Shown here piece by piece: positions 41,233-57,459 of a DNA stretch of 64,000 nucleotides. The notes beneath the pieces were generated by a model. The model was not told where the DNA came from. It saw only the letters and a program-made list of their open reading frames with translations, and searched no databases. Numbering within the stretch: the first letter of the stretch is position 1; every line of letters begins with the position of its first letter. Both the position numbers and the translations under genes were made by a program. The stretch comes from Nocardioides sp. 1609 (lineage in GTDB: Bacteria; Actinomycetota; Actinomycetes; Propionibacteriales; Nocardioidaceae), in the NCBI RefSeq assembly GCF_004522105.1, contig NZ_SPUJ01000001.1:62001-126000 (forward strand). The letters run 5' to 3'.

Positions 41233-41623
41233 GGTGAACCTCCCGCTAGCAGCTGGTTTCTCAGGGTGCGACAGCTGACGCTGTCGGTACAGCTGGAGTC
41301 CGTCCGGCCGACCTGGTCTTCGACCCCACAACCGCCTGCTGAGACGTTCGCAGCTTCTCTGCCACTACTGGCCTTCTCCCGACGCCCGCGCCGGCGGACC
41401 GGCGTGGGCTGACCGCATGTGACGGCCGGGACGGGGCAGGACTTACCTCTAAGCCGCACCGTGATCCTCGTGCCCCCGCCGGGGCGGGGGTGTGCACGGC
41501 GCCAGGGGCACCGGGCACCGAGTTACGTGGGCCGTTTCGCCTGCGACTGGCATCGGCTAGCCGTGCGGGGTGGACACCCCGGACGACGCAACCACGGACC
41601 CGGACGGACTCCATACACAGACG
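41233..41623. promoter_or_regulatory. 391-base leader/promoter region of hpf and comF terminator
   Basis: No gene seen. Contains a CGACAGC-TGAC-GCTGTCG hairpin (41269-41286) near the hpf start and a CCCCCGCC/GGCGGGGG hairpin (41473-41490) suited to ending comF. The length suggests regulated hpf transcription or a long leader. No known riboswitch recognised. Confidence 0.45.
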
Positions 41624-53090: not shown

Positions 53091-54488
53091 TCAGGGCAGG
53101 CCGGGGGCGACATCGGGCACCAGACCGGTGGTGACCGGAGCCCGGACGGGGACCAGCGTCGCGCCGTCGTCGTTGGTGACCAGCACGACCGAGGTGGCCG
53201 CGACGCCGGCGACCGTCACCAGGCGGGCCTCGGCGGGCAGGTCGACGACGTTCGCCCGGTCGCTGGCGACCTCGACCCGCTGCTCGGGCAGGGTCGCGCC
53301 GTCGGCGTCCCACAGCGTGACGGTGACCGCGCCCGGGCCGGCCGCGCCGCCCAGCACCAGGCTCTTGCTGCCGGCCGGCAGGACGGCGGTGCCGGGACCG
53401 TCGGGCCGCGCGACGGGCGAGGAGCGCACCAGGTCGCCGCGGTAGAACATCTGCAGGCTGGCGGTCGTCGGGACGGTGGACTCGACGAGCACCCCCAGTG
53501 CTCGCTCCGCACCGGTGCCGACCTCGGCGAGCACGCGGGTCAGCCGCACCGGCACGACCGACCGCGGCGGGAGCACGACGTCCTCGAGCCCGGCCGGGGT
53601 GAAGGCGGAGTCGGCGGTGACCACCTTGACGGTGGCGCGCTCCTGGGTCGGGCCCGGGTTCGTGACGAACAGGATCCGCGGCCCGCTGCCCCCGGGGACG
53701 CCGAGCAGGAGGTTCTCGGTGGCGGGCGCGTCCTGCGAGCCGAGCCCGTCGTCCCCGGCCCGGCTGCCGCCGATGCCGCGCACGGCGTCACGGACGCTCG
53801 CCGCGATCCGGCCCCGCACGACGCTCACGTGGAGGGTGAGCTCGTCGCGCCGCGGCAGGGTGGCGGCGAGGCCGATGGTGCGGGACTCCCCGCCCTGCAC
53901 GGCGACCCCGCGCAGGCCCGGGGCGTCCACGACGCCCTCGCTGCCCAGCACCTCGACGTCGACGACGGCGCGGCCCTCGTCGGGGTTGACCAGCTGCAGG
54001 ACCGACTGGTGCCGGGCGCCGGCGCCGACCCCGGTGAACCAGTGGTCGAAGACCGGGGCTCGGCAGTCGAAGCTGGCCAGCGGTCGCGAGAAGCTCGCGG
54101 CGACCAGCCCGGGCGCCAGGTCGCCGTCGCCGACGACGACGGCGGCGCGCTCACCGGTGTCGACCTCGGTGGACCGGCCCGGTGCGACGGCGACGTCGAG
54201 GTCGTCCCCGCGGCCGCTGCGTACGGTCAGGTCGCCACGGGCGCCCGACGTCGAGGCGACCTGGATGCCGCTGCCGCCGGCGGGACACACGACGCTGGCC
54301 GTGGACAGCGCGGTCTCCTCCGGTGCGACGTCGGGACGCGGCTCGGAGCCGGTGTCGACGAGCAGGGCGGCCAGCACGGCGAGCACCGGCAGCACGACGG
54401 CGGCGAGGGTGGTCACGTCGAAGCGGGCGCGGGCGGCGCGTCCGCCGGTGGCCGCCCGGCGTCCGGTCGTGGGGGTCGGGTCGCTCAC
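53091..54488 (-). CDS. DUF5719 family secreted/anchored protein
   Basis: 465 residues from a GTG. One N-terminal transmembrane segment (about 26-45) and a long beta-rich extracellular part with repeated short strands such as LQLVNPDEGRAVVDVEVLG and ILFVTNPGPTQERATVKVV. Function unknown; the family sits next to the membrane glycosyltransferase in Actinobacteria. Its start overlaps the stop of a 24-codon ORF (GTGA). Confidence 0.82.
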   Translation of the reverse strand: MSDPTPTTGRRAATGGRAARARFDVTTLAAVVLPVLAVLAALLVDTGSEPRPDVAPEETALSTASVVCPAGGSGIQVASTSGARGDLTVRSGRGDDLDVAVAPGRSTEVDTGERAAVVVGDGDLAPGLVAASFSRPLASFDCRAPVFDHWFTGVGAGARHQSVLQLVNPDEGRAVVDVEVLGSEGVVDAPGLRGVAVQGGESRTIGLAATLPRRDELTLHVSVVRGRIAASVRDAVRGIGGSRAGDDGLGSQDAPATENLLLGVPGGSGPRILFVTNPGPTQERATVKVVTADSAFTPAGLEDVVLPPRSVVPVRLTRVLAEVGTGAERALGVLVESTVPTTASLQMFYRGDLVRSSPVARPDGPGTAVLPAGSKSLVLGGAAGPGAVTVTLWDADGATLPEQRVEVASDRANVVDLPAEARLVTVAGVAATSVVLVTNDDGATLVPVRAPVTTGLVPDVAPGLP

Positions 54489-54559
54489 GCGGGGCCTCCG
54501 GCGCGCCGTCCGGCGCGGGAGCGCGGCGCAGGAGCCGCTTGACGGGGTGGGGTGGTCAT
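54485..54559 (-). CDS. 24-residue basic peptide, translationally coupled
   Basis: Short ORF with a strong AGAGGAG about seven bases before the ATG at 54559. The start overlaps the glycosyltransferase stop (ATGA) and its stop overlaps the DUF5719 start (GTGA). The peptide is Pro/Ala rich with five Arg in its second half. It may be a real small protein or a device passing ribosomes from one gene to the next. It could also be an N-terminal remnant after a frameshift. Confidence 0.5.
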   Translation of the reverse strand: MTTPPRQAAPAPRSRAGRRAGGPA

Positions 54560-57459
54560 GGTCGTCTCCTCTGTCGCAGCGTCGGGGCCGCGAGCACCAG
54601 CACCAGCACCACGCCGAGACCCTGGACGACGAGGAGGACGGCCCGCACCACGCCCCGCGCCGCGGTGCCGTCGCCGGCGACGGCGTCCGGGTCGAGCGGC
54701 CGGTCGACCTCCCAGGCGCGGGTGCCGGCGTCGGAGCCGGCCTGGACCAGGCCGGACGTCGCGTCGAGGGCCGCGGCCACCGTGCCGTCGACCGGCGAGG
54801 TGAGCAGCACGTACTCGATGCCGAGCCCGCCCAGCCGGTCGACGACGTCGCCGGTGGGGCGGGACAGGAAGTCGCGGACGGTGGCCGCGTCGGCGGCGTC
54901 GGTGTCGCTGAGGGCGAGCACCTCGTCCTCGCCGAGGGTCACCCCGTCGCCGCGGCGCACGGTGTAGGTCAGGCCGGTCGCGACGCTGCCGCTGACGACC
55001 AGGACGCCGTGCTCGGGGCCGGTGGTCGAGCGCTGCACCATGTAGGCCGGGACGACGGAGGAGTCGGCGGAGGTGAGGTCGTCGTCGCCGGTGAGCCACC
55101 AGGCGATCCCCGTGAGGGGGACGACGACCGCGGCCGCGGCCGCGACCATCCCGATCGCGCGCAGCGGGCCGGCCAGGCCGGCCCGGGTGGCCCCCTGGGC
55201 GCCCAGCACGACCGCGACCACGAGGGCCGCCTGCGCCGCCAGCAGCGGCCCGCCGAGGCCGGCGGGGGTGTCGGTCGCGGCCAGGGCGACGGTCACGGTG
55301 CCGAGGACGGCGCCGACCGCGGCGGAGACCAGCGCGACCAGCCAGCACAGGGTGACCGGGATGCGCGTCGCGCGGGGCAGCAGCGCGAGCACCGCGAGCA
55401 CCACCAGCGCCAGGCCCGCCCAGGCGGGGGCGGCGAGGTCGCCGAGCCGGCCGGCGAGCAGGTCGAGCGGCGCGACGCCGTCGGAGGGCGGGCGCCCGGT
55501 GTCGAGCACGAGCGCGGCGCCCGAGCCGGTGGTCAGCGCCGGGACCCACCACGGGGCGAGGAGGACCACCGGGACGACGACGGCGGTGAGCGGGGGGAGC
55601 CACACGTCGCGGGCGGTGACCAGCCCGCGCGCGAGCAGCAGGCCGGTGCCGAGGACGACGAGGACCAGGACCGCCGCGACCAGCCAGGTCGTGGGCGCGA
55701 ACGCGGTGGTGAGGGTGAGCAGCATCCCCACCCGCCAGCCGGCGCGCCGGCGGCGGTCCGGCTCCGGCTCGGCGAACCCGAGCGCCGCGTGGGCCAGCCA
55801 CGGCAGCAGGGCGCCGGCGACCACGAGCCCGAGACGCCCGTGTCCCCAGGCGCCGGCGGCGACCGGGGCGACGGCGTACGCCGTGGCGCCGCCGACCAGG
55901 ATCCAGCGCGGCGCGCCGCGCGGGCTCACCAGGCGTCCGGCGACCCGCAGGAAGCGCCACGCACCCCACAGCGCGAACGGCGCGGAGCCGAGCAGCAGCA
56001 GGCTGACCGCCCCGATCGGGCCGAGGACGGTGCCGAGGAGGGCGAGCGGGAGGACGTACGGCGGCGCCGGGACGTCGGTCCCGAACCCGAGCTCGTGCCA
56101 GGAGGCGAGGTGCAGCGACCACCACGCACCGGCGCCGTCGGGGGCCGGGGCGAGGGCGCCGCCGCTGACCTGGCCCAGCGCGGTGCGGGCCGCCACCAGC
56201 ATCACGGCCACCACGAGCGTCATCGTGAGGGCGACCGGGTTGGTGAAGAACCGGGCGATCGCGCCGGAGTCGGCGAGCTCGTCGTCCTCGTCACGCTCGC
56301 GCTCGGCGCGGAGCCGGGTCGCCGCCTGGGACGACGGGTCGAGCTCGGCGGCCGCGACCCGGCGGCGCTCGGCGACGTCGGAGGCCTGCTGGGTGACGGC
56401 GGAGACGACGTCGCCGACGAAGTCGAGGCCGTGGCGGTACGGCAGCCACGGGGGCGGGAGCAACCGCTCGACGCGCTCCCGGTCGGGGCCACCCGCGGCA
56501 GCGCGCTCGCGCCGCTCGCGCCGCCCGGCGCGCACCTGGCCCGGCCGGAGGACGACGGCGACCAGCGCGGCGAGGTCGTCGAGGGCCTCGCCGACCGAGC
56601 GGACCAGGAGGAACCCGACCATCCGGACCAGCGTGCCGAGCGTGAGGCGCAGCACCCGCCACGGCAGCGCGGCGGCGCTGCTGTTGACGAGCAGCGTGTA
56701 GAGCGCGGCGCGCCGCTCCTGGTAGTGGGTGTGGCGGCCGGTCAGCGCGGTGCGGCGCAGCCCCCGGTGGGCGGCCTCGGCGTGGAAGACGACGGCGTCC
56801 GGGACGACCAGGGTGGCGTGGCCGGCGGCCGCGGCGCGCCAGCCGAGGTCGAGGTCGTTGCCGAACATGGGCAGTCGCGGGTCGAAGCCGCCCAGCGCCT
56901 CCAGCACGCGTCGACGCACGAGCATCCCGGCACTGTTGACGGCGAGGACCTCGCGCTCCTCGTCGTGCTGGCCCTGGTCGTACTCGCCGCGCTCGAGGCC
57001 GGTCTCGCGGCGTCCGGTGCCCGACAGGGTGACGCCGAGCTCGAGCAGGCGCCGCAGCGACGGCCACTCGCGCAGCTTGGGGCCGAGGACGTCGACGTCG
57101 CGACGCCGGGCGGCGGCCGCGAGCAGCGCGGCCAGCGCGCCGGGCGCGGGGCGGGAGTCGTCGTGCAGCAGCCAGACCCACTCGGTGTCCGGCGCCTGGG
57201 CGGCGACCCGCTCCAGCCCGATCCGGACGGCGTCCGGGTACGACGCCGACGACGTCGCCTCGACCAGGTCGTAGCCCTCGGGCAGCAGGTCGCGGCTGCC
57301 GTCGGTGCTGCCGGTGTCGACCGCGACGACGCCGGACAGGGCGGCGCCCTGCTCCGCGATCCCGTCGACGACCCCGGGCAGCCAGCGGGCGCCGTCGTGC
57401 GTCACCAGCAGGGCGACGACGCGGCCCGGCGGTGCGGACGGGACAGACGGGGCGGACAC
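54556..57459 (-). CDS. large membrane glycosyltransferase family 2 protein
   Basis: 967 residues from a GTG. Residues about 1-270 are a GT2 catalytic domain: VALLVTHDGARWLPG, VDTGSTDGS, LLHDDSRPAP with the metal-binding Asp pair, and MFGNDLDLGWR. About 12 transmembrane helices follow from about residue 280, plus an extracellular C-terminal region (TTGPEHGVLVVSGS). Probably uses a nucleotide sugar to build a wall or membrane glycan. TAGGCT eight bases before the start. Confidence 0.85.
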   Translation of the reverse strand: MSAPSVPSAPPGRVVALLVTHDGARWLPGVVDGIAEQGAALSGVVAVDTGSTDGSRDLLPEGYDLVEATSSASYPDAVRIGLERVAAQAPDTEWVWLLHDDSRPAPGALAALLAAAARRRDVDVLGPKLREWPSLRRLLELGVTLSGTGRRETGLERGEYDQGQHDEEREVLAVNSAGMLVRRRVLEALGGFDPRLPMFGNDLDLGWRAAAAGHATLVVPDAVVFHAEAAHRGLRRTALTGRHTHYQERRAALYTLLVNSSAAALPWRVLRLTLGTLVRMVGFLLVRSVGEALDDLAALVAVVLRPGQVRAGRRERRERAAAGGPDRERVERLLPPPWLPYRHGLDFVGDVVSAVTQQASDVAERRRVAAAELDPSSQAATRLRAERERDEDDELADSGAIARFFTNPVALTMTLVVAVMLVAARTALGQVSGGALAPAPDGAGAWWSLHLASWHELGFGTDVPAPPYVLPLALLGTVLGPIGAVSLLLLGSAPFALWGAWRFLRVAGRLVSPRGAPRWILVGGATAYAVAPVAAGAWGHGRLGLVVAGALLPWLAHAALGFAEPEPDRRRRAGWRVGMLLTLTTAFAPTTWLVAAVLVLVVLGTGLLLARGLVTARDVWLPPLTAVVVPVVLLAPWWVPALTTGSGAALVLDTGRPPSDGVAPLDLLAGRLGDLAAPAWAGLALVVLAVLALLPRATRIPVTLCWLVALVSAAVGAVLGTVTVALAATDTPAGLGGPLLAAQAALVVAVVLGAQGATRAGLAGPLRAIGMVAAAAAVVVPLTGIAWWLTGDDDLTSADSSVVPAYMVQRSTTGPEHGVLVVSGSVATGLTYTVRRGDGVTLGEDEVLALSDTDAADAATVRDFLSRPTGDVVDRLGGLGIEYVLLTSPVDGTVAAALDATSGLVQAGSDAGTRAWEVDRPLDPDAVAGDGTAARGVVRAVLLVVQGLGVVLVLVLAAPTLRQRRRP

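Follow-up and report, generated by a model that had tools for sequence, protein, structure and literature searches.

A 24-codon, doubly overlapping reading frame in Nocardioides sp. 1609 as a probable copy of a miniature dispersed element

A 64,000-nucleotide stretch of the Nocardioides sp. 1609 genome (assembly GCF_004522105.1, contig NZ_SPUJ01000001.1, positions 62,001 to 126,000; hereafter the window) carries on its minus strand, at 54559-54485, an open reading frame (ORF) of 24 codons which runs from ATG to TGA and encodes the peptide MTTPPRQAAPAPRSRAGRRAGGPA. We read this ORF, with confidence, as one copy of a miniature dispersed mobile element of about 70 nucleotides (nt), which occupies DTGA stop/start overlaps between co-oriented genes and would be nearly neutral for its host by serving as a ribosome relay. 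The ATG of the ORF overlaps the TGA stop of a glycosyltransferase gene (54556-54558) as ATGA, and its own TGA (54485-54487) shares bases, as GTGA, with the GTG at which a DUF5719 gene starts (54488); an earlier note, made from the letters alone, had reported the ORF with both overlaps, and the sequence bears out its coordinates as well as the overlaps. The features of the region are listed below, where G086 is the nearest genome, a sister to this one, and R1 is a model of the element family.

54485-54559, minus strand: 24-codon element ORF, with the ATGA overlap at its start and the GTGA overlap at its stop (sequence)
54489-54559, minus strand: inserted element copy, 71 nt net relative to G086 (G086 alignment; model R1 match, 61.6 bits)
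54496-54509, plus strand: first arm of the family hairpin, antisense to the genes (columns 9-22 of alignment A4; coordinates converted by hand)
54539-54552, plus strand: second arm of the same family hairpin (alignment A4, columns 53-66; coordinates converted by hand)
54566-54571, minus strand: GAGGAG, Shine-Dalgarno-like, ahead of the ORF's ATG; host sequence (sequence; sister comparison)
54495-54499, minus strand: GGAGG within the inserted copy, 6 nt ahead of the DUF5719 GTG (sequence)
54556-57459, minus strand: upstream host gene, family 2 glycosyltransferase, 967 amino acids (PF13641, 3.7e-18)
53091-54488, minus strand: downstream host gene, DUF5719 protein, 465 amino acids, GTG start (PF18986, 4.1e-37)

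An extra 71 nt at the glycosyltransferase-DUF5719 junction

DUF5719 was detected in 206 of the 215 Nocardioides genomes, this one included, and the junction figures given here cover the 55 loci that were fetched, representing 52 distinct other genomes of the genus with L054-L056 counted as the same as L032-L034. In all 55 loci an in-frame DUF5719 start lay at -1 (42 loci), -5 (12 loci) or +2 (one locus), counted from the stop of the glycosyltransferase gene, and an additional ORF would not fit in between. Thus the ORF, whose retention in relatives the earlier note had proposed as a check, was present at this junction in none of the 52 genomes. An open frame of 24 codons with a strong ribosome-binding site and both overlaps could suggest that the operon has a conserved gene for a small protein; we rejected this explanation, which we regard as barely credible, because the frame is not kept in close relatives, similar peptides were found beside unrelated genes, and the codon positions carry no signal. 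It is the repeat, together with both overlaps, that is found again where other genes meet. Of the earlier interpretation, the non-chance coupling stood while a conserved ORF of this locus did not.

In G086, whose DUF5719 protein is 93% identical, both flanks of the junction align and exactly 71 nt are missing: the sister reads ...gacgacc|GTGAGCGACC, and the window carries the 71 additional nt at that point. The 71 nt are best read as an insertion in the lineage of Nocardioides sp. 1609. The sister also has the GAGGAG site, which stands there directly before the DUF5719 GTG and is therefore host sequence; the ribosome-binding site that had been claimed ahead of the ORF exists, but it is host-derived. 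The start of the insert resembles the start of DUF5719, and across the genus the N-terminus of DUF5719 varies and is often basic, as a frameshifted or duplicated N-terminus, or a sequencing error, might produce; since G086 aligns on either side of the 71-nt gap, and members of a dispersed family match the insert almost end to end at unrelated junctions, we rejected this origin as very improbable. No Pfam or NCBIfam family matched the ORF peptide, in agreement with the earlier remark that length cut-offs would miss such a frame; Rfam at gathering thresholds matched nothing at the element position, and plasmid records searched with the junction gave no match.

Dispersal and double coupling of the element family

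The insert matched this dispersed family over nearly its whole length. A DNA search returned full-length or near-full-length matches of 71-79% identity at other junctions, in this genome beside an HMA-domain gene and in other genomes, where the translated flanks were read, at the argF-argR and folK-DUF3180 junctions, ahead of a sigma-factor gene and between genes for ABC transporters. Model R1, built from 7 copies and applied at E<=1e-3 with 22 candidates scored per genome, had matches in 153 of the 215 Nocardioides genomes (134 of the 191 good ones). This genome had at least 21 matches with those 22 candidates scored, and a fuller scan gave 24 at E<=0.01; the window holds one clear copy, the next-best match having E=0.075. 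A second model, R2, built from 63 matches (some being one copy present in two loci), matched 177 of 341 genomes of the taxonomic family, in 7 of its 26 genera, with 23 listed genomes outside the genus by our own count. Under stricter filters and with 12 candidates scored per genome, R2 found a single matching genome (G320) among 395 others sampled across the phylum; the match there is weaker (E=3e-6), has both overlaps and lies between genes read as folP and folB. Among the host genes with Pfam matches are those for a protein kinase, an alanine dehydrogenase, an aldehyde dehydrogenase, a MaoC-like protein, and permeases and ATPases of the ABC type. Among the papers listed by searches of one open-access library, judged mostly by titles and the openings of abstracts, none was seen to describe elements of this kind in Nocardioides.

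Comparison with the sister showed that most of the sites compared are empty there. Joined flanks of 12 sites of this genome were searched in G086, and 11 of them aligned, those of L121 having no match there. Eight of the 12 sites were unoccupied in G086; one of the eight (L174, the site of L118 here) has an 11-nt element-like remnant between the genes, which is perhaps a deletion footprint. Two sites were occupied, one of them with 2 tandem copies versus 3 here, and the site of L120 contained, by alignment, a shorter and diverged piece (the joined query was poor, and an ORF there runs for 303 codons). Tandem copies occur in other genomes too. The array that differs from the sister (L124; G000:C15:231572-231781 here and G086:C1:300609-300752 there) could possibly serve as a typing locus.

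We assessed the coupling on 74 distinct copies with enough flank, which are nhmmer matches in loci L058-L169. Sixty-five of these begin at ATGA, GTGA or TTGA, and the other 9 show no clear TGA; NTGA is present at both ends in 56, with a spacing of 2 modulo 3 in 53 of the 56, so that 53 of the 74 copies are perfectly double-coupled. The same test on random positions of the fetched loci was passed by 303 of 200,000, a figure that overstates chance because those loci contain the elements, and the earlier judgement that such double coupling is unlikely to arise by chance is thereby supported. Flanks of the 53 coupled copies look coding on both sides: at least 60 open codons were found upstream in 48 and downstream in 47, mean G+C by codon position was 0.74/0.57/0.87 upstream and 0.70/0.55/0.93 downstream, and the third position had the highest G+C in 41 of the 53 upstream and 47 of the 53 downstream. 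Within this genome, 10 of the 12 sites walked, holding 13 copies, were perfectly coupled. A sub-type with one extra base at its right end occurs at L208 (G158:C11:365800-367000), where tandem copies run in frame into each other and into the next gene, forming an N-terminal extension and not a separate ORF.

A covarying hairpin on the antisense strand

The element copies contain imperfect inverted repeats. When 30 hand-picked copies were read on the strand antisense to the genes, a 13-pair stem was paired in 95.9% of 390 cells, versus 90.6% in shuffled and 48-61% in slid alignments; 8 of the 13 pairs had changes on both sides, and none of 500 shuffles was as high on any measure. Since the picking had excluded many degenerate copies, we recounted on all 54 distinct copies and found 656 of 697 cells (94.1%) paired on the antisense strand versus 555 (79.6%) on the sense strand, with 34 cells changed on both sides, a number that averaged 5.7 in shuffles and reached 13 at most. 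The antisense fold was also the more stable one in all 30 picked copies by RNA rules (mean -33.3 versus -20.9 kcal/mol) and in 29 of the 30 by DNA rules. Two of the stem pairs are mostly G-U and therefore become A-C mismatches on the mRNA strand. A sense-strand structure of 8 pairs, seen with 7 copies, did not hold up on 63 matches, for which RNAalifold predicted no structure on the sense alignment. These alignments indicate that a hairpin with covariation is maintained among the copies, on the antisense strand.

Codon-position entropies in the ORF were flat (0.487/0.545/0.487), and the peptide itself is therefore not evidently selected. What is evidently selected is the open frame and its length.

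Ribosome relay, mobility and comparison with known repeats

Since the element ORF begins at the stop of the upstream gene and ends at the start of the downstream gene, we propose that a terminating ribosome would re-initiate on the ORF and then once more on the downstream gene. Such a relay would spare the operon polar effects and render the insertion nearly neutral; the element could thus invade operons with little harm because its ORF probably passes the ribosomes on. We infer that the ORF is translated for this relay and not for its peptide, that transposition is the route of dispersal, and that the hairpin, as single-stranded DNA or RNA, may be the substrate of a mobilising enzyme.

This architecture and behaviour match what has been described for mycobacterial interspersed repetitive units (MIRUs), a likeness that we draw by description and not by sequence descent. 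MIRUs were reportedly described by Supply and colleagues in 1997, with DTGA as the insertion target. Passages of a 2025 review (PMC12548453) present them as mobile repeats that insert in stop/start overlaps and keep ribosomes moving through, and passages of another article (PMC4213456) tell of arrays that differ between strains, with tandem units of 77 and 53 bp. Like MIRUs, the Nocardioides element is a short, dispersed, multi-copy repeat whose internal ORF overlaps the flanking stop and start (in the 53 coupled copies); it lies at DTGA sites between co-oriented genes (the 65 copies above), with empty sites in the sister, and its tandem arrays vary in copy number. It differs in being found in Nocardioides and relatives, in its length of about 70 nt and in the covarying antisense hairpin shown for it.

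According to passages of PMC4213456, a MIRU-bearing senX3-regX3 intergenic region drives regX3 expression, and this, together with the conservation of the hairpin, would fit a regulatory element, retained because it acts on the gene downstream, perhaps as an internal or antisense promoter, and not a near-neutral mobile repeat. We consider such a role unlikely given the diversity of the host genes and the 8 of 12 own sites that are unoccupied in the sister.

REP/BIME repeats, which are associated with RAYT transposases, are short dispersed units whose hairpin is preserved mainly on one strand. The Nocardioides element shares with them its small size, its dispersal and a conserved hairpin mainly on one strand, whereas it carries a coupled ORF and sits at operon junctions. 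That better-preserved strand and the short, fixed target could speak for a REP-like element whose mover is a Y1 (RAYT/IS200-like) transposase; however, the Y1 family (PF01797) is absent from this genome and was found in a single one (G161) of the 215 of the genus, while 153 carry element matches. The Y1 transposase is thus not supported as the mover, and we consider a REP-like origin of this kind improbable. Reverse transcriptase was found, by our own count, in 19 of 59 genus genomes and in 8 of the 18 with at least 10 copies; this association with copy number was not significant (P=0.15, uncorrected for kinship and with copy counts that are lower bounds), and we did not retain it as the mover either. 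This genome has one PF00078 reverse transcriptase match, at G000:C14:570170-570793, with similar scores in several Nocardioides genomes.

Several observations weigh against the mobile relay element that we favour. The window copy is divergent, with full-length matches of 71-79% as given above and no direct source seen, and it retains 9 of the 13 hairpin pairs; at any single site, loss in the sister rather than gain here is possible. Twenty-one of the 74 copies are short of perfect double coupling, and the coupled fraction does not come from random sampling, since most of the loci were fetched as best scorers and they partly overlap those used for model building. Two of the 12 sites walked in this genome lack the right-hand coupling, and 9 of its 24 matches, weak or doubtful, were left unwalked; the majority of these look degenerate, and one resembles the start of an ordinary gene. 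The 8 stem pairs with both-side changes among the 54 copies were equalled by some shuffles (mean 4.1, maximum 8). Neither candidate mover was borne out, and translation, re-initiation and transposition are all deduced from sequence.

A more specific form of the proposal, to which we give somewhat less than even weight, is that of a Nocardioidaceae-centred, non-autonomous family specialised for stop/start overlaps, combining an antisense mobility hairpin, a relay ORF that preserves coupling and a mover of a kind yet to be found. Here the wobble pairs of the hairpin would become mismatches in the mRNA and leave the ribosomes unblocked.

Rickettsia palindromic elements are short repeats with an open frame that lie inside ORFs. 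The Nocardioides repeat is likewise short, open-framed and tolerated among dense genes, but it stands between genes, at stop/start overlaps, and not within ORFs. Our results suggest that repeats of the MIRU type also exist outside mycobacteria. They add a second family, in which empty sites, varying tandem copy number and hairpin covariation are all seen, and with it soil bacteria become a place to test how such elements move and whether the relay ORF really protects operons. They would also account for very short, double-coupled ORFs as a class, which annotation overlooks or may mistake for small proteins.

Elsewhere in the window, Rfam identified a raiA RNA (RF03072) at 41299-41608 on the minus strand, at 112.4 bits and above its gathering score.
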